Shown here: piece by piece, positions 1 through 12,204 of the stretch
Position numbering within the stretch: position 1 is the first letter of the stretch
How the letters are laid out: each line of letters starts with the position of its first letter
IMG/VR virus record: IMGVR_UViG_3300025769_000488
Span: 1 to 32,054 of that record
Length of the DNA: 32,054 nucleotides
Source of the DNA: a virus
Direction: 5' to 3' (one strand)
Translations under genes and position numbers: made by a program
The notes under the pieces: generated by a model
What the model was told of the DNA's origin: nothing
The model's input: the letters and a program-made list of their open reading frames with translations, nothing else
Database searches by the model: none

Positions 1-1123
1 AATGACGTATGTAATCTTCTTCGTCTCCAAAATTCTTACCTATACCTATAATAATGTCAGCCTCAGCGGCCTTGCCTGTACGGGAGTTTTCTAACATGCC
101 AAAATCAATCTCCTGTCTGTTATGTGCTTCATAACTAGCTTGTGATACTGCCCATACCATACAGTCTCTTCTCTTTGCTATAGCTCTTGATGTTTCATAG
201 ATAGCTCTTAGTTTTTCATCTACTCTAGCGTAAGTGTCATTAATGCTCACCTTGTCTAGCTGATCTACAAAAATAATGTCAGGCTTATGTGTTTCCACAA
301 ACTTGTCAATCTCTGTAATAGATATCTGTCTGCCTTCTAACAAGGACAACTTCGGCTTAATCTCATTGCTGTACACCTCATCTGCACTCTTAACATCTTC
401 TCGTAACTCATTGACTGTTTTGCCTAAATAGGAACAAAAGATTCTACCCTTAACCATTCTTCCCGGTTCTTCATTTGCAAAGTACGCTACCTTGTACCCT
501 TGTTTAATGTATTCCGACACTAAGTATGTACAGAAAGTTGTCTTACCAGTCTCTGGTCTAGCAAAGATAATACCTAGATTGCCTCTACCCACACCATTTA
601 TTCTGTCACGCAACGGTGCAAGTTCAAACTGAAAGTCAAACCCTTTGTCACAGCTTTCTAGATACTCTGACACATTGTCATCTACTCTTACAAAATTACT
701 GTCATCCGTAGGCTGTTTGTCAATTAACTTGTCAACTAAGTTTTGCAGTCCAGCGTAGTCACCATTGTGACCCAACCAAATGTCAGTCGCCTTTGATCCT
801 ATCTCGTGTGCTTGATTACGTCTCCAAAAATTTATCACCAAGTCTTTTGCTAACTCTGAATTGCCTGTATAGTTTTTTAAATCTCTAATTACTTCTTCTA
901 TCATATCACGGCTACTATCTGGCATTGCAGGGAACTTGTCTCTATGTAGATTAACAAGTTCCTCTACAGTCAAATCGCTGTCATACTTTACATGAGCATA
1001 AGCAATAGTATCGAATATAGTACCCACTCCATTGGCAAACATCTCCTTTCCTATAATGTCATTTACTTCTTGATAGAAGTCTCTTTTTAAACAGTGTGCT
1101 AGTAATTGTTTTTCTATTGTCAT
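1..1123 (-). CDS. DnaB/gp4-type replicative helicase (C-terminus cut by window edge)
   Basis: My own reading of the complement gives 374 residues before the window ends, so the C-terminus is missing. The N-terminal ~165 residues are helical and DnaB-N-like. The RecA-like ATPase core follows: Walker A ARPETGKTTF at about 188-197, a catalytic-Glu-like NEEPGR at 217-222, Walker B DIIFVDQLD at 282-290, and a VSQAS sensor at 326-330. By family this is a ring helicase that unwinds phage DNA at the fork. ATG at 1123 overlaps the stop of the primase gene as ATGA, so primase and helicase are translationally coupled. Primase and helicase are separate proteins here, unlike the fused T7 gp4. A RecA-like recombinase is less likely, because the linker plus EE and SQ motif order is DnaB-like. 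Confidence 0.9.
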   Translation of the reverse strand, partial: MTIEKQLLAHCLKRDFYQEVNDIIGKEMFANGVGTIFDTIAYAHVKYDSDLTVEELVNLHRDKFPAMPDSSRDMIEEVIRDLKNYTGNSELAKDLVINFWRRNQAHEIGSKATDIWLGHNGDYAGLQNLVDKLIDKQPTDDSNFVRVDDNVSEYLESCDKGFDFQFELAPLRDRINGVGRGNLGIIFARPETGKTTFCTYLVSEYIKQGYKVAYFANEEPGRMVKGRIFCSYLGKTVNELREDVKSADEVYSNEIKPKLSLLEGRQISITEIDKFVETHKPDIIFVDQLDKVSINDTYARVDEKLRAIYETSRAIAKRRDCMVWAVSQASYEAHNRQEIDFGMLENSRTGKAAEADIIIGIGKNFGDEEDYIRH

Positions 1124-1905
1124 GAACTATACACTCTGAATCTCTCGTTAATTTTGTCAACGTCCCACGTCTTGATATCTGTCTCTATGAATAGATTGTG
1201 CACAGCAACATGTGCAAACAACTCTTTAGATATTGTCAGTGACTTTTTACTTGCATCTTTGTCAAGGGCAACGACTGCTGTCTTGAACTTCTTGATGTAG
1301 TTTACATAATTGTCAATCAAGTTTGTACCCATCAGTGCTATACCGACTACTCCTCCTTGTGTTACTGCACAGGCAGATGCACAATCCTCCACGATCACAC
1401 AAGTGTCACTCTTATTATTTGTCACGAATGGCACACGACTAGCACAATATCGCTTCCACTTTGGTTTGCGATTTGTCAGTGATCTACCCACAGCATCTAC
1501 CAAAACATTGTCAGCGTCATACACGAGAAACACCACTCTATTTTCTCTAACATCAAGTTCTAGACTGACCCACTTTTGGGAGTAGGCTGTATAGATATTA
1601 TTATCTTTTATATACTGTACAGCCCTTTGTGATCTAGATACAGGCACGAAATATTGCCTGTACATACTAAGTGTCAGTCGTTTTCTTTCTTTCTGCATAC
1701 GAGCAGTTGAAAACAATCCGTGCTTAACTTTGCCACGAATACCACAGTCAGCGTAAAAACAATTATACACCACACTACCACCAAGGTTAGTAGCAGAGAA
1801 ACTGTTTTTGTGACCACAGACAGGACAGTCACTACGCATTGTGATACCTTCCTGTATAGCCATTGCATCAATGTAACCATTTATGTTTACTCCTTTATCT
1901 TTCAT
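1120..1905 (-). CDS. DNA primase, T7 gp4-type (zinc finger + TOPRIM)
   Basis: 261 residues. The zinc-binding motif is C27-x2-C30 (SDCPVCGHK) with C49 and C54 (YNCFYADCG), as in bacteriophage primases. A TOPRIM core follows: E173 in VIVEDCASA and the acidic pair D215/D217 in VVALDKDAS, which bind metal during primer synthesis. The length is that of a stand-alone primase without helicase. The zinc finger of this family reads a short template trinucleotide (5'-GTC in T7), which matters for the TTGTCA repeats in this window. ATG 1905 overlaps the stop of the upstream small gene as ATGA, and the gene ends inside the helicase start. Confidence 0.92.
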   Translation of the reverse strand: MKDKGVNINGYIDAMAIQEGITMRSDCPVCGHKNSFSATNLGGSVVYNCFYADCGIRGKVKHGLFSTARMQKERKRLTLSMYRQYFVPVSRSQRAVQYIKDNNIYTAYSQKWVSLELDVRENRVVFLVYDADNVLVDAVGRSLTNRKPKWKRYCASRVPFVTNNKSDTCVIVEDCASACAVTQGGVVGIALMGTNLIDNYVNYIKKFKTAVVALDKDASKKSLTISKELFAHVAVHNLFIETDIKTWDVDKINERFRVYSS

Positions 1906-2039
1906 ATATTCACCAACAGCAATACCAAGCTAATAACTAGCAGTACAGGAAAAATATGATTGACCCATAGATTTCCTTGTTGCTGTTTAGCAAACCATTT
2001 ACCTGTAGCTCTAAGCCTTCTCTCTCTGTCCTTGCTCAT
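1902..2039 (-). CDS. 45-residue single-pass membrane protein
   Basis: Short gene read directly from the complement: ATG at 2039, TGA at 1904-1902. The first ~25 residues are basic and polar (MSKDRERRLR start) and the last ~17 form one hydrophobic segment (FPVLLVISLVLLLVNI). This predicts one membrane span with the N-terminus in the cytoplasm by the positive-inside rule. A purine-rich GGGAGAAGG lies just before the start. It overlaps the zinc-ribbon gene by 29 bases and the primase start by ATGA. Function is unknown; its place in the replication operon could suggest membrane tethering, which is inference only. Confidence 0.6.
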   Translation of the reverse strand: MSKDRERRLRATGKWFAKQQQGNLWVNHIFPVLLVISLVLLLVNI

Positions 2040-2184
2040 CCTTCTCCCTTTTGCCCCAATACACTAAATGAAATGCCTCACACTTAGGACAAGTTAAATT
2101 TGTCACTATCTCATGCTCCTCGTCATCTTCACAATCGTGATCGCCACCCCAAATTAATTCTGTCTGACAGTTGTAACACTTCAT
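2011..2184 (-). CDS. 57-residue zinc-ribbon protein
   Basis: Read from the complement. Two CxxC knuckles, CYNC at residues 3-6 and CPKC at about 32-35, are separated by an acidic segment (HDCEDDEEHE), the layout of a small zinc ribbon. The start ATG at 2184 overlaps the upstream nuclease stop as ATGA, which supports it as a real coupled gene. Such proteins often bind nucleic acid or act as small adaptors. Nothing here tells which, and the very acidic middle would not favour non-specific DNA binding. Confidence 0.7.
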   Translation of the reverse strand: MKCYNCQTELIWGGDHDCEDDEEHEIVTNLTCPKCEAFHLVYWGKREKDEQGQREKA

Positions 2185-2714
2185 TCCACGTCCAATGCTG
2201 TCTTAATTATCTTCTTCACATCAACATGAAAAAACGGTTCTTTTAAATGTGGTGCATCAACATGCCGTGAGTTCTGTATAGTCTGTACAGGACTTTTTTC
2301 TAAAATGTCATGCGATATAAACCAACCTTGATCCAAGTGCCTGTTCAACACGACAAATGTCAACTGATACGGTCTGACAAACTGTTGCATATTATTATCC
2401 TGTGCAAACTCTTTTGCATTGTTTGTCTCGTGGTAAAATTTGTCAATCAATCTTTGTTTACGCTGTGGTATTCTTACTTCCTTCCAATTCTCATTCCATA
2501 CCTTGCCCCACTGATTCTTGACTTCTACCTCCCAAAAACATGCACAGCCTGTGTCTGACACTGTGGACAAGTCCCAAGAGAAGTTTTCCTTATCATCTGT
2601 GATTGTATGATCGCTGTTTATCAGATACTTCTTCAGTGCAGTCTTCGCCCTGCCGTCATTGGCTGTATAGGATAGTTGGTTAAACCTTCGATTGTGATGT
2701 CTTCTTGTTAACAT
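2181..2714 (-). CDS. Putative PD-(D/E)XK-type nuclease
   Basis: 177 residues from ATG 2714. A second ATG six bases upstream (2720) sits only one base from the GGAGG at 2722-2726, while 2714 is seven bases from it, so 2714 is the better start. A possible catalytic signature is D48 (FSWDLS) then E64-x-K66 in FWEVEVKNQW, with 16 residues between D and E, as expected for the PD-(D/E)XK fold. The rest is rich in Trp, His and basic residues. The position among replication genes fits a junction-resolving or DNA-degrading enzyme of the T7 endonuclease I kind, but I do not recognise a named family and the call rests on this motif. Confidence 0.5.
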   Translation of the reverse strand: MLTRRHHNRRFNQLSYTANDGRAKTALKKYLINSDHTITDDKENFSWDLSTVSDTGCACFWEVEVKNQWGKVWNENWKEVRIPQRKQRLIDKFYHETNNAKEFAQDNNMQQFVRPYQLTFVVLNRHLDQGWFISHDILEKSPVQTIQNSRHVDAPHLKEPFFHVDVKKIIKTALDVE

Positions 2715-2901
2715 AACCATACCTCCTTAGCATCACGTTGATACCTTTATTTTCACCTTGCCTGTATGCAATATTATAATAGCTTTTAATCAGATTAAAC
2801 TGATGAGCTGTCAACTTTGTGTCACCTAAAATGTCAACCAATCGCTGTTCGTAAAATGACTCATCAAAATCAAGTGTTATTTTGTTCTTGCTCGTACTCA
2901 T
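2680..2901 (-). CDS. Hypothetical protein, 73 residues
   Basis: Starts MSTSKNKITLDFDESFY, with AGGAGG seven bases before ATG 2901. It ends 35 bases inside the nuclease gene. The middle (LTAHQFNLIKSYYNIAYRQG, then NVMLRRYGY) is helical and could form a small helical bundle or HTH, but no family is recognised. The overlaps on both sides place it in the same leftward transcript. Confidence 0.7.
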   Translation of the reverse strand: MSTSKNKITLDFDESFYEQRLVDILGDTKLTAHQFNLIKSYYNIAYRQGENKGINVMLRRYGYVNKKTSQSKV

Positions 2902-3130
2902 TCATAGCCTCCTGTTGTTTGTCATACCATACTTCTTGCCAGAGTTCTCTGACATCATCCTCAAATTCATTCCACGAATATCCTGTCGGTAGAAACATCT
3001 TACCCTGTATCATTTGTTTATCGCAGGATTGTAAAACTTCCTCTACAGCTTCACTTTCTAAACACATTTTCTGTATAGCATACCACTGTTTGTTTTCTTG
3101 TTCCTGTATATACTGTTTGTATTTACCCAT
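2870..3130 (-). CDS. Hypothetical protein, 86 residues, acidic and helical
   Basis: Starts MGKYKQYIQEQENKQW with GGAGGG eight bases upstream of ATG 3130. Rich in Glu, Gln and Trp (ELWQEVWYDKQQEAMNEYEQ), predicted mainly helical, with two cysteines and no recognised motif. It overlaps the next gene by 32 bases. Function unknown. Confidence 0.7.
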   Translation of the reverse strand: MGKYKQYIQEQENKQWYAIQKMCLESEAVEEVLQSCDKQMIQGKMFLPTGYSWNEFEDDVRELWQEVWYDKQQEAMNEYEQEQNNT

Positions 3131-3138
3131 TATCCCTC

Positions 3139-3309
3139 CTAAAACTTCGGCTCATAAATCACTCCTTCCTTAAGTAATCGTTCATAATGATCTGCCTGTT
3201 CTTTATAAAATACAGCATCCTCGTGTCTGTCTTCCCACTCTGCATCATGCTGTTCCTGTCTAGTACGTTTATATTCTGCCTGTACATCAATAAAATGATC
3301 AGCTCTCAT
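3139..3309 (-). CDS. Hypothetical protein, 56 residues, helical
   Basis: Read from the complement: start MRADHFIDVQAEYKRTRQEQ, end IYEPKF. It is charged and probably one long helix or coiled coil. ATG 3309 shares its A with the stop of the repressor gene (TAATG), so the two are coupled. The GGAGGG just after its stop serves the next gene. Function unknown. Confidence 0.6.
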   Translation of the reverse strand: MRADHFIDVQAEYKRTRQEQHDAEWEDRHEDAVFYKEQADHYERLLKEGVIYEPKF

Positions 3310-3482
3310 TAGAAATTTCCTAATGGCATGTTGTAAACTTCTCTGATCCTCTTCATCAGTTTGATACTAGGATTAGCCTTGCCTTCCATCATGTTGTATA
3401 CATGCGTGATAGATACATCCACTGATCTAGCAAAATCCTTAGGATCAATCTTTTTATCCTGTATAATCTTTTTTACATTCAT
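3309..3482 (-). CDS. Cro/CI-type (XRE) HTH DNA-binding protein, 57 residues
   Basis: Read from the complement; shorter than usual listing cut-offs. The sequence starts MNVKKIIQDKKIDPKDFARS, and the five-helix pattern of the lambda-repressor fold is visible: DFARSVDVSITHVYNMMEG is the HTH, followed by ANPSIKLMKRIREVYN. It is a bare DNA-binding domain, as in Cro. Its likely role is controlling the divergent early promoters at about 4600-4715, where inverted repeats are present, but no direct link can be shown. ATGA and TAATG overlaps couple it to both neighbours. Confidence 0.8.
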   Translation of the reverse strand: MNVKKIIQDKKIDPKDFARSVDVSITHVYNMMEGKANPSIKLMKRIREVYNMPLGNF

Positions 3483-3664
3483 TTGTTTTCCTCCTCTAAA
3501 ATATCTGCAATATAAAATTCTTCGTGTACAAAATCAAACGTGTCTTTTGTCAGTAAGCGATCCATTTTCTTCTTCACGTCCTGTACACTTGTACCTTCTA
3601 CAGTTCGCTTATAGTAAGCCACTTCTCTAGCATAGACAATGTATTTCTTTTTCTGTACAGTCAT
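3479..3664 (-). CDS. Hypothetical protein, 61 residues
   Basis: Starts MTVQKKKYIVYAREVAYYKR. The beta-rich N-terminal strand pattern followed by EGTSVQDVKKKMDRLL looks like a small alpha/beta phage protein, but no family is assigned. It is coupled by ATGA to the genes on both sides. Confidence 0.7.
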   Translation of the reverse strand: MTVQKKKYIVYAREVAYYKRTVEGTSVQDVKKKMDRLLTKDTFDFVHEEFYIADILEEENK

Positions 3665-3831
3665 TTTCTCTTGTTTAATAAATTATGGTAATAAGTCCAC
3701 AGCCTTCTATCCGTAGCATGTACATCTCCTGTGATCCTCCACCACTCCTCGCTTTGTTTCCAACCTTTGTAATATCTACCCTCTATAGCATCAATTCGTT
3801 GCTGTATTTCTGTACAGGTGAGTTTACTCAT
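3661..3831 (-). CDS. Hypothetical protein, 56 residues
   Basis: Read from the complement: start MSKLTCTEIQQRIDAIEGRY, end HNLLNKRK. Rich in Trp, Arg and Tyr (KGWKQSEEWWRITGD). Its stop overlaps the next start as ATGA and its start lies eight bases inside the upstream gene. No known family. Confidence 0.6.
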   Translation of the reverse strand: MSKLTCTEIQQRIDAIEGRYYKGWKQSEEWWRITGDVHATDRRLWTYYHNLLNKRK

Positions 3832-4042
3832 TAGTCTTCACTCCCACAACCAACAGCGTCAATTTGTCAGCCACCTTTTCTTTGTCAAACACTTGGCATA
3901 CTTCGTCCCACGCACCGTCTTGAAAGTCATCGTGGTATAAGTCTAGAAATCTAGCGTTTGGGATTACCTCCCAATCCACTCCCTTCAACTCCTTCTGCTG
4001 TTCAGCTGTCAAAGTCCATTTGCCTGTTTCTGGTTTATGCAT
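3824..4042 (-). CDS. Hypothetical protein, 72 residues
   Basis: Starts MHKPETGKWTLTAEQQKELK and continues with WEVIPNARFLDLYHDDFQDG, ending VVGVKTNE. Acidic alpha/beta protein without a recognised motif. The start overlaps the end of the 55-residue gene upstream by eight bases. Confidence 0.65.
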   Translation of the reverse strand: MHKPETGKWTLTAEQQKELKGVDWEVIPNARFLDLYHDDFQDGAWDEVCQVFDKEKVADKLTLLVVGVKTNE

Positions 4043-4202
4043 CTTGACTCTCCCTCATATCTAATACATCTGATTTTAATTGTTCTGGCTCATAATCTCC
4101 ATTAGCTATTTCACATAAAACTTCTAACACAAACTGTTTAGGATAATCTCCTCTCTTATCTGTGCCTATCCACAACTCCATATCTTCTAAGTTAACTCTC
4201 AT
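4035..4202 (-). CDS. Hypothetical protein, 55 residues
   Basis: Read from the complement: start MRVNLEDMELWIGTDKRGDY, end MRESQDA. GAGGAG lies eight bases before ATG 4202. It is acidic, with a helical C-terminal half. It overlaps its neighbours by 11 and 8 bases, the spacing seen across this operon, which supports it being translated. Function unknown. Confidence 0.6.
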   Translation of the reverse strand: MRVNLEDMELWIGTDKRGDYPKQFVLEVLCEIANGDYEPEQLKSDVLDMRESQDA

Positions 4203-4482
4203 CTCTATGCTCCTCAGACTCTTTTTCTACAATGTCATCTAACACGGATGATATACAGCCTAACAATATATTCGTAGCACATGTATTAGTGGGTGCTGTG
4301 TCAAAAGCCAATTGACAATTAAATAGCTGTATAGCCTGTACCATGTTGGGAATTGTCACTCTCTCTGATAGTTCCTCAGACAAGTCTAATAATTTGTCAC
4401 GCACTAATGCTATCTGTCCACTGTCAGACAATGGTGCTTTCTTTGGTTTTAGTTTTACTAGTTTTGGTTTTGTATTTGTCAT
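4192..4482 (-). CDS. Hypothetical protein, 96 residues; first gene of the leftward operon
   Basis: Lysine-rich N-terminus (MTNTKPKLVKLKPKKAPLSD), helical body (ALVRDKLLDLSEELSER) and acidic C-terminus. AAGGAAGG lies seven bases before ATG 4482; another ATG at 4489 is in a different frame. As the promoter-proximal gene of the replication operon it would be made first and in high amount. No known family. Confidence 0.7.
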   Translation of the reverse strand: MTNTKPKLVKLKPKKAPLSDSGQIALVRDKLLDLSEELSERVTIPNMVQAIQLFNCQLAFDTAPTNTCATNILLGCISSVLDDIVEKESEEHRDES

Positions 4483-4597
4483 TTGTCATCCTTCCTTGTT
4501 GTTCGTGGTAACAGATTTAGCATAGTCACTTTTAATCTAGATACATACCTAACTGTCACCACTAGACTTATAAACGATAAGCAATATAAAACTTTGT

Positions 4598-4627
4598 TTG
4601 AATAAATCATGTTTAGCTAAATATACT
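4598..4627 (+). promoter_or_regulatory. Candidate rightward promoter for the early plus-strand genes
   Basis: TTGAAT (4598-4603), 18-base spacer, TATACT (4622-4627). A second possibility is TTGACT (4680-4685) with GATACT (4701-4706) at 15 bases, closer to the first gene. Either would read through the early gene string starting at 4774. Confidence 0.35.
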
Positions 4628-4646
4628 AAGACTGACACACGGTCAA
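4620..4646 (-). promoter_or_regulatory. Candidate leftward promoter for the replication operon
   Basis: On the minus strand, TTGACC (complement of 4641-4646) and TATATT (complement of 4620-4625) are 15 bases apart. The spacer is short, so the match is moderate. It would give a leader of roughly 130 bases before ATG 4482. Its -10 overlaps that of the rightward candidate at 4598-4627. Confidence 0.3.
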
Positions 4647-4699
4647 GCATAATAAACGCTGTACAGTATCTTTTTCATATTGACTAGCGTCAGTCGATT

Positions 4700-4715
4700 T
4701 GATACTTATGTATCA
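4700..4715. promoter_or_regulatory. Inverted repeat TGATAC-TTAT-GTATCA, possible operator
   Basis: Perfect 6-base arms with a 4-base spacer, overlapping the second rightward promoter candidate, as an operator for a small Cro-like protein would. A shorter repeat CTTAT-AAACG-ATAAG lies at 4567-4581. A run of seven G at 4732-4738 follows. The rest of 4483-4773 holds no gene. Confidence 0.35.
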
Positions 4716-4773
4716 CCGTCCAAATTTGGTTGGGGGGGTTTACATATATATCCTATACAGAAAGGAAGGGATT

Positions 4774-5847: not shown

Positions 5848-6157
5848 TATAAAAGAAGAATTAGAAATGTGGAGAGGGCATGGCGTTGTCATTGCTTCTC
5901 TCACCAATGAAGAGAAAAGTAAGTATATACAAGAGAAGGTACAAGGGAAGATATTCTCTGTATCTTTTATAAAGAAGGACGGCACAGAGAGAAATATGGT
6001 TTGTCGTTTGGGTGTACAGAAATATTTGTCAGGTGGGAAAAGTGTCAACGATCCTAGCAAGTATCTGACTGTATTTGATATGCAGAAGAATGCATATAGA
6101 AATGTCGCTTTGGAAACTATCTACAGATTGAGGTGCAAAGATGTGTTCATTGGGTGA
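5834..6157 (+). CDS. SH3-like beta-barrel phage protein
   Basis: 107 residues. The body follows the pattern seen in small SH3-barrel proteins of marine phages: a strand with KKDGTERNMVCRLG, then a loop, then VFDMQKNAYRNVALETIYRL. By family these are uncharacterised, small, basic beta proteins that may bind nucleic acid. The start ATG 5834 is preceded by GAGTGAGGAAG inside the coiled-coil gene. The gene carries the first two of the plus-strand TTGTCA sites in this half (5886 and 6026). Confidence 0.6.
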   Translation: MKDSSIKEELEMWRGHGVVIASLTNEEKSKYIQEKVQGKIFSVSFIKKDGTERNMVCRLGVQKYLSGGKSVNDPSKYLTVFDMQKNAYRNVALETIYRLRCKDVFIG

Positions 6158-6332
6158 TATCAACATAAAACAATTGTCAGCTGTTATGGATGATTTCGAG
6201 GATAATAAATTGTCAACAGACTGTATAGCACAAAAGTATAATTTGTCAGTCAAGGAAGTAATACAAATTGTCAACGAATTGTCATACTTCCGTAAGAACC
6301 GACATAAATTTGTCACAGAAATTGTCAGCTAA
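6141..6332 (+). CDS. Putative HTH protein, 63 residues
   Basis: Starts MCSLGDINIKQLSAVMDD. The stretch KLSTDCIAQKYNLSVKEVIQ fits a homeodomain-like helix-turn-helix. It overlaps the SH3-like gene by 17 bases. Its DNA contains seven TTGTCA copies, read mainly as Leu-Ser, so the coding sequence and the repeat array share the same bases. A link between the protein and the repeats is a guess. Confidence 0.55.
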   Translation: MCSLGDINIKQLSAVMDDFEDNKLSTDCIAQKYNLSVKEVIQIVNELSYFRKNRHKFVTEIVS

Positions 6333-6341
6333 AATTTGTCA
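6174..6341 (+). repeat. Iteron-like cluster of eight direct TTGTCA repeats
   Basis: Copies start at 6174, 6210, 6243, 6268, 6279, 6310, 6322 and 6336, all in the same orientation. Flanking bases agree too, giving a consensus close to AAATTGTCAR. Spacings are 36, 33, 25, 11, 31, 12 and 14 bases. The array lies in AT-rich DNA across two overlapping small genes, 140 bases before a sigma70 promoter. This is the look of an iteron or multi-site protein-binding region. Confidence 0.6.
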
Positions 6342-6471
6342 ATACTGTACAGCAAACGCTGTGATCTACCAATGGGATAAATGGTTGTGTTTCAAACATT
6401 GGAAGATCGAGAGAGATATTCAAGAGAAAAAAGAAAAAGAATATAAAGAAAAGTTTGCTGTACAGAAATAA
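6268..6471 (+). CDS. Small Cys-rich protein with TTG start
   Basis: The frame has no ATG. TTG 6268 has AAGGAAG nine bases upstream and is the best start; TTG at 6310 or 6322 would give a shorter protein. The core is KICQYCTANAVIYQWDKWLC followed by FKHW, a CxxC plus Cys/His pattern suggesting a small zinc site, then a long charged helix to the end. The N-terminal part is read from the repeat array in a second frame and may not be under protein-level selection. Confidence 0.5.
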   Translation: MSTNCHTSVRTDINLSQKLSAKICQYCTANAVIYQWDKWLCFKHWKIERDIQEKKEKEYKEKFAVQK

Positions 6472-6477
6472 ATTATC

Positions 6478-6507
6478 TTGACAGCATTATTGATCTTGCT
6501 GTATAAC
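6478..6507 (+). promoter_or_regulatory. Sigma70-type promoter before the DUF932 gene
   Basis: TTGACA (6478-6483), 18-base spacer, TATAAC (6502-6507): a perfect -35 and a five-of-six -10. Transcription would start about 6514, giving a ~35-base leader with AGGAAGGAA before ATG 6549. The DUF932 gene can therefore be expressed independently of the genes upstream. Confidence 0.65.
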
Positions 6508-6548: not shown

Positions 6549-7592
6549 ATGACAAATACAAATGATGTAATGGGAGTTGTAAAACCTACGACTCATATTC
6601 ATAACAATATAGACGATCTATCTTTTTTTGATTTCAAGGTTGAGAAGAGACCGTTGTTTTTTGAGAATGATACTAACGGTCAAGTGATCTCTTATGACGG
6701 TCAATCTGTTATGACTAAAATTGACGGTAAACACGCTGTAGTCAGAGCAGATACCAATCAATGCTTAGGAGTACACGGCAGAACTTATAAGATTGTACCA
6801 CATATTGATGTCTATAAGAGACACGCAGAGTCTATTAAGAACAGCAGTGCTTACGATCCACAGCAAATTGAGATTATAGATCAGCTTTGGGATAAAGGTG
6901 CAAAGGCACGTAGGACTATACACTTTCTTAATCACACTAAGAGAGTATCAGAGAGTGATGTAGTAACTATGCGATCTGACACTTTTAACAGTTTAGACGG
7001 ATCATTTGCATTTCAAGTATTCAGTGGAATGTATAGAGCATTATGTTTAAACACTTTGGTATTTGGTGGTGAGAAGTTTTATCATAGTAAACAAAAACAC
7101 ACGTCCAACATTAACTATGCTAGTGCTGTTTCTAAGATTGCTAACTCAGTAGACTTATACAATAGGGACTATGACAAGTTATGCAATTGGAGAGATACCA
7201 AAGTAACTGACGAGCAGGTGGCAATGCTGTTTGCAAATACCATTGCTAAGAGAAAGTCAGAGTCAGCTACCGTTATTAAAGAGGCACTGAAGGAAGAGGG
7301 AGTAGAACTAAAACAATTGATCAATGTTAAACTCAATGACTTCCTAATGCACCAATATGGTAAAGAAAAAGAGTCACTTGGTGGGACGCTGTATGCAGTA
7401 TACAATGCATTAACTCATTGGAGTACACACACAGACAGCAGTTGGGAGAGAACCAATTCTAAAGGCGAAACTGTCACAGCGTATACTTCTAGGAATGGTA
7501 GCAATGTAGGATCAGTACAAATTGAGAGAGAGAACAAGGTGCGATCTTGCTTGGATTCTGATCATTGGAATGAACTACAGATGGTTGCTTAA
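6549..7592 (+). CDS. DUF932 domain protein (phage/plasmid type)
   Basis: 347 residues, matching the usual length of the DUF932 / phage-plasmid-like protein family. Family-like features are a GVHGRTYKIVPH motif near 84-95, RRTIHFLNHT, and the central FQVFSGMYRALCLNTLVFGG. The C-terminal third is helical with Trp and Ser-rich loops. Biochemical function of the family is not established; it is common in plasmids and phages next to replication or anti-defence genes. It is the largest early plus-strand gene, has its own promoter and AGGAAGG ribosome site, and is coupled by TAATG to the next gene. Confidence 0.85.
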   Translation: MTNTNDVMGVVKPTTHIHNNIDDLSFFDFKVEKRPLFFENDTNGQVISYDGQSVMTKIDGKHAVVRADTNQCLGVHGRTYKIVPHIDVYKRHAESIKNSSAYDPQQIEIIDQLWDKGAKARRTIHFLNHTKRVSESDVVTMRSDTFNSLDGSFAFQVFSGMYRALCLNTLVFGGEKFYHSKQKHTSNINYASAVSKIANSVDLYNRDYDKLCNWRDTKVTDEQVAMLFANTIAKRKSESATVIKEALKEEGVELKQLINVKLNDFLMHQYGKEKESLGGTLYAVYNALTHWSTHTDSSWERTNSKGETVTAYTSRNGSNVGSVQIERENKVRSCLDSDHWNELQMVA

Positions 7593-7753: not shown

Positions 7754-7939
7754 ATGGCAAGGAATAGTTTAGATATTGCTATGCTAATTACAGATGCTGT
7801 TCTTAATGAATTTGAAAAGAATGGCATTTGTAAGATACCATTGGACGAGTCAAAAGATTCGAAACCGTATTCGTGGGATTTACAAGATGTAATTCAAGAC
7901 GAATTAGATAAATTGTCAGATAAAAAATTGTCAAACTAA
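7754..7939 (+). CDS. Hypothetical protein, 61 residues
   Basis: Starts MARNSLDIAMLITDAVLNEF, acidic, helical ends around a short loop (PLDESKDSKPYSWDLQDV). The C-terminal KLSDKKLSN is encoded by two TTGTCA copies 15 bases apart (7913 and 7928). AAAGGGAGGAG precedes the start. Function unknown. Confidence 0.6.
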   Translation: MARNSLDIAMLITDAVLNEFEKNGICKIPLDESKDSKPYSWDLQDVIQDELDKLSDKKLSN

Positions 7940-9072: not shown

Positions 9073-9159
9073 ATGGAAGGATTCATAAGTTTAGTATATA
9101 AATTGTGTATGTCTTTGCTAATAATTGCTGTTATTCTTATAGTATTATTAGTAATATAA
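9073..9159 (+). CDS. 28-residue transmembrane microprotein
   Basis: Translated directly: starts one codon boundary after the previous stop (TAGATG), begins MEGFISLVYKL and continues into one hydrophobic span (MSLLIIAVILIVLLVI) to a TAA at 9157-9159. A GGGGGA lies upstream. It is the last gene before the terminator. Short single-span peptides like this occur as lysis or toxin-like proteins, but no role can be assigned. Confidence 0.45.
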   Translation: MEGFISLVYKLCMSLLIIAVILIVLLVI

Positions 9160-9163
9160 TTAG

Positions 9164-9206
9164 AAAATACCGTTGCTGTATGTAGGTTATACTCAACGGT
9201 ATTTTT
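9164..9206 (+). terminator. Rho-independent terminator ending the early transcript
   Basis: Perfect 12-base stem AAAATACCGTTG (9164-9175) with its complement CAACGGTATTTT (9194-9205), 18-base loop, then T. A-rich on one side and T-rich on the other, so it may work in both directions and insulate the early genes from the late region. Confidence 0.85.
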
Positions 9207-9421
9207 ACATCTGGCTCAAGTACCTACTTAATTCGTAAACTACTGATAATATTGAAATACACTTGGGTTGAATGACACGCCCACCAGCTGGTAAACATTA
9301 GATTTTAATTAGATTAAACCAGAAATTTGTCATATATACTTTATACACATACGCATATATATAGAAACTTACAAAAGAGTTTGTTTTATGTTGGTGCTTG
9401 GTTGTAGTTTGTAAGTTATTT

Positions 9422-9451
9422 TTGACATATTTAATAAGAAAATAATATAAA
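9422..9451 (+). promoter_or_regulatory. Sigma70-type promoter candidate
   Basis: TTGACA (9422-9427), 18-base spacer, TATAAA (9446-9451). The surroundings are very AT-rich. It would give a leader of about 340 bases to the small terminase gene, reading through the inverted repeat at 9461-9494. Confidence 0.45.
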
Positions 9452-9664
9452 AATACTCAATATGGGTATGCTTGGGACACGGGGGGTACCCATACATGTA
9501 TATGCAATGGAAATAATAAATTTCTAAAAATGGAGGATTAAACCAGACTGGTTGCTGTACCTAAGTAAGACCCCGTTGCTGTCTATAAGTATACCTATAT
9601 ATATGCTCCCCCAAAGGCTTACCTTTTATTATACACCCCTATGAGCAACCTGTCAAGAAAAAAC

Positions 9665-9692
9665 TTGACAAAGTGTGTATATACAGTATAAT
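9665..9692 (+). promoter_or_regulatory. Consensus sigma70 promoter for the late (packaging/structural) genes
   Basis: Perfect TTGACA (9665-9670) and perfect TATAAT (9687-9692) with a 16-base spacer. It lies about 50 bases upstream of the leader peptide and 105 upstream of terS. It suggests that host RNA polymerase, not a phage polymerase, drives the late genes. A second TATAAT at 9695-9700 is too far from the -35. Confidence 0.75.
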
Positions 9693-9743
9693 TATATAAT
9701 AAGGCATAAACTTCGTTCAGGTCTCGCCAATTACAACACAGGG

Positions 9744-9803
9744 ATGAACAGGGGACAGCAACCGTTTATGCTGGTTTCCAACTTAACACAGCAACAGAAA
9801 TGA
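9744..9803 (+). CDS. Possible 19-codon leader peptide coupled to terS
   Basis: An open frame begins MNRGQQPFMLVSN at ATG 9744 and ends in TGA at 9801-9803, overlapping the terS ATG at 9800 as ATGA. terS has no clear ribosome site of its own, so coupling through this leader would explain its translation. The leader's own ribosome site is weak (CAGGG right before ATG). Confidence 0.3.
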   Translation: MNRGQQPFMLVSNLTQQQK

Positions 9804-11182: not shown

Positions 11183-11325
11183 GCATAGCTTGTTTGGTAT
11201 TGGATTTCGTAACGAAAGAGTATTACACGATTAGTGAACTAGAGAAGATACAGAAAGATAGAAAAAAACAGCAACCGTTTAACTCGAAAGAGTCGGAAGT
11301 AGGGAAGACCGAAGAAACGCACTAA
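11179..11325 (+). CDS. Hypothetical protein, 48 residues
   Basis: Read directly: ATGA overlap with the previous stop, start MSIACLVLDFVTKEYYTISE, end KTEETH. Charged C-terminal half. It includes the 14-base sequence ACAGCAACCGTTTA (11268), also found in the leader at 9755. Both copies are read in the same phase, giving QQPF. Function unknown. Confidence 0.45.
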   Translation: MSIACLVLDFVTKEYYTISELEKIQKDRKKQQPFNSKESEVGKTEETH

Positions 11326-11463: not shown

Positions 11464-12204
11464 ATGGTTGATCCAGTTACGGCACTGGCTACAGCAACTG
11501 CAGCTTTTAACGTCATTAAGAAAGGCTTTGAGGTGGGTCGTGACGTGGAAAGCATGTATGGAGATATGGGTAGATGGATGGGTGCTTGCTCCGATATCAA
11601 CCAAGCTCAAAAGATGTCGCAGAAGCCTCCGCTATTTAAAAAGATATTTGCGGGTGCGTCTATTGAAGAGGAGGCGTTAAATGCTTTCGCAGCTAAGAAA
11701 AAAGCTCAAGCGATGGAGAATGAACTTAGGACGTTCATTAACCTTGCACATGGGCCGAATGCATGGAATGAACTTTTGCAAATGCAAGGAAAAATTAGAA
11801 AACAAAGACAAGAAATGATTTATAAACAGCAAGAGAGACAGAGAAAGATGATAGAGATATCTTCTATAGCAGTGGTAGCATTACTAGCAGCAGCCATGAT
11901 GATATGGATTGCCACAGCAGTAGCTAGTAAAGTAAATGCACACGAACTCTGTGGTGAGTTTAAAACGGGCTACGCTATCTGTATAAACGAAGGATACGAT
12001 CAGGCACACGCTAGTATGTTTGGTAAGAGGTTTCCTAAACACGAGAGATATATAAGTTGCAAGCTGTCGGAGTATAGACCATACAACAGCAACGATATGG
12101 AAGGTATGCAATGTAGATACAGATTTCCTAATCAGGATAGTTTTACTATTGTTACCTACGAGGGTATGTGCCCAGAACAATTAACATGTACGGTGAGTAA
12201 TTGA
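11464..12204 (+). CDS. Membrane-anchored protein with Cys-rich outer domain
   Basis: 246 residues. The N-terminal 130 residues are helical (coiled-coil-like KIRKQRQEMIYKQQERQRKM before the span), one transmembrane segment follows at about 133-156 (IAVVALLAAAMMIWIATAV), then ~85 residues with six Cys (163, 173, 199, 217, 236, 242), enough for three disulfides in the periplasm. Basic residues before the span put the N-terminus in the cytoplasm. Proteins of this layout are seen near terminases of marine phages, with unknown role. GGAAGGG upstream; it overlaps the next gene by a TTGA junction. Confidence 0.65.
   Translation: MVDPVTALATATAAFNVIKKGFEVGRDVESMYGDMGRWMGACSDINQAQKMSQKPPLFKKIFAGASIEEEALNAFAAKKKAQAMENELRTFINLAHGPNAWNELLQMQGKIRKQRQEMIYKQQERQRKMIEISSIAVVALLAAAMMIWIATAVASKVNAHELCGEFKTGYAICINEGYDQAHASMFGKRFPKHERYISCKLSEYRPYNSNDMEGMQCRYRFPNQDSFTIVTYEGMCPEQLTCTVSN

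Follow-up and report, generated by a model that had tools for sequence, protein, structure and literature searches.

The window, by which we mean the whole stretch of DNA analysed, is a 32-kb virus contig whose gene order, primase, helicase and terminase relate it to phages of the HMO-2011 type, such as Pelagibacter phage HTVC033P. Judged over the genome as a whole, homologues of the primase, PolA, helicase and TerL genes occur in the module order of that group, which has been described as dominant and widespread in the ocean (PMC9038755). Leftward genes, including those for the helicase and the primase (1-4482, − strand), and a rightward early operon (+ strand, from after 4773 to about 9.1 kb) flank a divergent intergenic region (4483-4773); past the early operon come a 0.7-kb AT-rich gap, TerS, TerL and the structural genes. 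The replicative helicase (1..1123, − strand), truncated by the start of the window, is an open frame that is 43% identical to the helicase of the relative G005 and, by position, homologous to annotated DnaB-like helicases. Next to it lies a zinc-ribbon/Toprim DNA primase with the knuckle CFYADC (1120..1905, − strand; PHROG DNA primase, 1.6e-19), which is homologous to annotated HMO-2011-type primases; its Toprim_2 match is weak and below the Pfam cut-off, and a search of solved structures gave weak DnaG matches only. A Cro-like protein is encoded at 3309-3482 and a DUF932/TIGR03299-like protein at 6549..7592 (+ strand). We dropped the idea that the latter is a recombinase, its predicted model being too poor (pLDDT 40).

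The AT-rich intergenic region (9073..9799) is a candidate origin or packaging region. It contains a perfect 12-bp inverted repeat (9164-9205; AAAATACCGTTG...CAACGGTATTTTT), followed by a T-run on the + strand, that is terminator-like and possibly bidirectional. It also holds a divergent pair of sigma70 promoters (9628..9692; TTGACA/TATAAT, 12/12), the sole perfect matches in the window, which are kept in G002, G003, G007, G008, L008 and L009.

Within the early operon, eight direct copies of TTGTCA lie in 168 bp (6174..6341, + strand), the densest cluster of this word. All copies, starting at 6174, 6210, 6243, 6268, 6279, 6310, 6322 and 6336, have the single orientation that an earlier note on this DNA had described. 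Random placement of 36 sites in 9.4 kb, repeated 20,000 times, never gave eight within 168 nt, and no other hexamer of the window reached this density. Since the copies occupy two reading frames, they are not a protein repeat. Their spacings (36, 33, 25, 11, 31, 12 and 14) show no helical phasing (Rayleigh R 0.19-0.41). The extended consensus AAATTGTCAR, proposed from the array, was exact in just three of its eight copies (6207, 6265 and 6319) and had to be given up; the consensus over all 36 sites of the window is A-W-TTGTCA, with the following base not fixed.

The array overlaps the gene for a small protein of 63 amino acids (6141..6332, + strand). Its description as HTH-like was borne out by a predicted model with helices at residues 9-20, 26-32 and 37-52 (core pLDDT about 90); a fold search with this protein gave no match at E < 0.001. 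A second small gene (6268..6471, + strand) starts within the array, a TTGTCA copy offering it a TTG start codon. This frame had been suspected of being a by-product, but its C-terminal half is probably a real gene, because the conserved CxYC...WLCFKHW is kept in relatives. The sigma70-type promoter that had been noticed shortly after the array is present as TTGACA-N18-TATAAC (6478..6507, + strand), between the array and the DUF932 gene, and is likewise kept in relatives.

The array is just the most crowded part of a one-strand field of 9 kb that the earlier note had overlooked. Between 303 and 9332, TTGTCA occurs 36 times on the + strand and 5 times on the − strand; the rest of the window contains 0 copies on + and 8 on −. 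The field runs across the divergent promoters without a strand switch, so that the word is antisense to the genes of the leftward primase/helicase operon but has the sense orientation in the rightward one, which rejects a general coding-strand asymmetry. We compared the counts with those after synonymous codon shuffles, which preserve the proteins. The leftward genes contained 16 sense TGACAA against 4.5 expected and the rightward early genes 11 sense TTGTCA against 1.5, with the opposite orientation at expectation in each case; a by-product of protein sequence or codon usage was ruled out by these shuffles in both gene directions. In an unbiased scan, all hexamers were scored by strand across both gene directions against protein-preserving codon shuffles. 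TTGTCA ranked first, with z 9.5 in the window, 10.6 in G002, 8.2 in G005 and 8.3 in G004, the relatives being non-independent samples and each z-score referring to its own genome alone. Promoter-like matches in the region were only at shuffle level, and −35 promoter boxes were rejected. The findings support a sequence-specific function at the DNA level, probably one linked to replication. A strand-specific six-base field that is readable from sequence alone offers a direct way into the copying or processing of DNA by such phages.

The field-bearing relatives are, like the window, all metagenomic contigs. In three long relatives the + sites fell into one arc of 7-10 kb (41/43 in G001, 36/40 in G004 and 37/41 in G005). 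Sites were intact at 33/35 positions in G002 and 15/15 in G009, relatives in which about half of all hexamers are unchanged, and at 26/33 in G001. Identity was 0.95-0.98 at the six positions of the word, against about 0.90 in the three bases preceding it and 0.82-0.85 following it; the relatives keep exactly these six bases, which form the conserved unit. Copies of the array were partly lost in close relatives and others gained, the array overall persisting; in G007 and G008, some copies are gone and new ones were gained via insertions. Loss of the repeats in close relatives that keep the proteins had been named as evidence against the earlier reading, but they survive together with the HTH protein even where its sequence is no more than 51-57% identical. 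A second field-bearing clade, which includes G005, is distant, its primase being 38-41% identical to that of the window clade. By BLAST, the two clades have only primase, helicase and DUF932 in common within the field, yet they use the same word, which loosens to WTGTCA in the G005 clade. The DUF932 gene lies close to the right border of the field, and a site pair downstream of it (7913..7933, + strand) has a counterpart at the DUF932 3′ end in the distant clade. No homologue of the small array proteins of the window was detected there.

Outside the field, + WTGTCA was depleted in G004 and G005 in genes of both directions (3 vs 16.6; 2 vs 15.7), with the − strand near expectation after leaving out one repeat-rich gene. 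In the window clade the + depletion had the same sign but was weak (0 vs 1.6; 1 vs 4.6), and phages without the field showed no + depletion pattern of this sort. One strand, then, is read and the other ignored; selection on one strand, with the other neutral, makes a simple duplex-binding protein or duplex nickase less likely and favours a process that works on a single strand.

Two sister-clade loci, L064 and L065, contain most of the G005 field genes at 44-92% protein identity but no field. The two genes that carry the G005 cluster hold 7 sites in G005, 6 in G004 and 0 in L064/L065. The persistence of repeats alongside proteins held in close relatives and not here: L064 and L065 keep both array-bearing proteins (52-63% identity) but 0 of 6-7 sites, these proteins being different from those of the window. 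The field-bearing primases examined all had the zinc knuckle CFYADC, and four sister-clade primases without the field had CFSANC, residue 51 being invariably D with the field and N without it. A fifth sister-clade primase, that of L063, has CFYANC. L063 (1-4682) is an apparent recombinant, with a helicase 96% identical to that of G005 that keeps its sites and a sister-clade-type primase whose gene has few. The correlation between knuckle and field points to the primase but is suggestive only, because similar changes exist in DUF932 and an exonuclease; it amounts to one or two independent changes, and other sister-clade proteins changed too. Among 160 further relatives surveyed, none had CFYADC and none a comparable one-strand field. 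Some CRP603-like loci had a moderate excess of the word on one or both strands, unlike the field, and the isolates HMO-2011, CRP-1, CRP-212, CRP-345, CRP-603 and HTVC033P showed no enrichment comparable to it. TGGTCG, considered as a possible substitute for TTGTCA in the sister clade, was rejected, having few copies and an orientation that follows transcription. The existence of clades with and without the field that carry the same genes makes the reader testable.

What could read a six-base word on one strand? Among the proteins common to both field-bearing clades, only the primase is known to read a short single-stranded DNA word, so that the best explanation, which we put forward tentatively, is that TTGTCA marks template-strand start sites for the phage's own zinc-finger/Toprim primase. 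The primase encoded inside the field would read 5′-TTGTC(A)-3′ on single-stranded + DNA and begin its primer with pppACAA; ACAA is one of four primers that T7 is known to make. On this view the field would serve as an extensive region of single-strand initiation, from which the complementary strand is primed many times, and 6174-6341 would be its densest cluster of priming sites. We infer the primase as reader, a + strand that is single-stranded in vivo and the location of the origin, possibly at the AT-rich right border (9.1-9.8 kb).

The T7 primase recognizes 5′-(G/T)2GTC-3′ and makes ACCC, ACCA, ACAC and ACAA (PMC12839067). Every copy here contains TTGTC, one of the four pentamers of this pattern, which by arithmetic occurs in a random hexamer on a given strand with a chance of about 0.8%; the corresponding primer would be ACAA, and, as with the gene 4 sites of T7, a zinc-ribbon/Toprim primase is phage-encoded, here with Toprim_2 below the Pfam cut-off. 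That only one strand is read is also easier to reconcile with a displaced single strand than with a protein that binds the duplex. T7 sites, too, exceed the codon-shuffle expectation: in a control to the right of the T7 origin, (G/T)2GTC was over-represented on the + strand (123 vs 85.9, z 5.0, codon shuffles), and GTC alone was not. However, the T7 pentamer was over-represented on the − strand as well (z 3.0), and here the A after GTC is required and matches the core in conservation, a feature not expected from T7-type recognition. The likeness to T7 concerns the recognition word and the type of primase. Moreover, T7 sites are spread over the genome, whereas those of the window and its relatives crowd into a one-strand field of 9 kb and are depleted from the same strand outside it. 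If the + strand were the lagging template of a moving fork, sites would be needed genome-wide; given their depletion outside the field, a special replication mode must be assumed. One such mode, which we consider quite unlikely, would be asynchronous strand replication, in which a leading strand proceeds from the AT-rich right border round the genome, the + strand is displaced as a single strand almost devoid of priming sites, and about 40 primase sites in the last-exposed 9-kb field start the second strand. This would explain why + sites are purged outside the field, and it resembles the sso/dso layout of rolling-circle plasmids; if true, a tailed dsDNA phage would possess an origin field devoted to its second strand.

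Priming sites might instead follow an ordinary replichore layout, with + as the lagging template inside the field and − everywhere else. The switch of one-strand use at the field borders irrespective of coding direction fits this, as does a slight excess of − sites outside the field in G004 (z 1.9). But the − enrichment was traced partly to one repeat gene, without which it vanishes in G005 (25 vs 24.0), it is absent in the window clade, and the two replichores would differ greatly in size, 7-9 kb against about 40 kb; we regard this layout as improbable. Strand-specific nicking of the packaged genome seems unlikely, though less so. The anatomy of the field matches that of phages T5, phiKMV, tf and Rembedalsseter, whose nick motifs are short, on one strand, gene-independent, kept in diverged relatives and concentrated on the right side of terL-oriented genomes (PMC3517423, PMC11780129). 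TTGTCA sites are likewise concentrated at the far end of terL-oriented genomes, the field being the last part of the genome ahead of TerS and TerL, and isolated + copies outside it are purged. Yet the motifs of nick phages are rare or absent on the other strand, and here − copies are at chance level both inside the field (5) and outside it (8); nick motifs have about 7-16 bases, and the present word has six, with copies 2-3 times more numerous. The tf motif is absent, no nickase was identified, and the nicks of those phages are in their packaged genomes, the present sites being known from sequence. Least probable are Chi-like polar recombination signals shielding the DNA from a nuclease that enters where it is broken close to the terminase genes. 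A Chi-type enzyme coming in at the right border would read the + orientation, extrapolating from E. coli Chi, but the sites are confined to 7-10 kb, wrongly oriented Chi should be neutral although + copies outside the field are purged, and the word is missing from sister phages.

We also think it unlikely that the sites bind a phage regulator, such as the HTH protein (6141-6332), the Cro-like protein (3309-3482) or an RHH-like protein, that silences or organizes the early region. The window array does overlap the HTH gene, the field spans the divergent early promoters, and a seven-site cluster in G005 overlaps a small gene whose product is RHH-like by eye, with no Pfam match, and which has diverged where the field is missing. 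However, no homologue of the small candidate regulators is detectable in the second clade with the field, a mere six bases lacking both phasing and partner repeats offer little to a duplex-binding protein, and one-strand selection and purging would be left unexplained. Of the earlier proposal of a replication origin or operator array, the sequence-specific function is supported; a classical iteron or operator array is not, given the six-base unit, the irregular spacing, the spread over 9 kb of genes in both directions and the selection on one strand. Iteron origins of plasmids and phages resemble the array in their clustered direct repeats near replication genes but have units of about 17-22 bp with regular helical spacing, in contrast to the six-base constraint, the spacings of 11-36 and the 9-kb extent found here; no Rep family match, as for an initiator, was found among the proteins scanned. 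The stoperators of cluster A mycobacteriophages are also dozens of asymmetric sites in and around genes, with a possible HTH reader as the point of likeness, but they are 13 bp long and their orientation follows transcription (PMC9283540). TTGTCA lies on the same strand in leftward and rightward genes, and stoperators were rejected. The primase remains our preferred, if tentative, reader.

Several minor observations were made in the same genomes. A repeat-rich structural protein gene of G005 (133-2850, locus L045) has DNA repeats that mimic TGACAW enrichment and are a trap for word statistics. The G005 field includes a C5 cytosine methyltransferase gene (Pfam PF00145; L046, 12522-13667). In the window, a glutamine riboswitch aptamer (RF01739, 52.5 bits) lies at 11274-11323, upstream of the gene at 11464-12204. 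Finally, another word, TTGCTGTA/TACAGCA, is over-represented in the window clade, on both strands, for example at 9173, 9552 and 6500; TGCTGT occurs in 47 and 50 copies in the window, about 8 per strand being expected from length alone, and the 8-base form is almost missing from G004 and G005.
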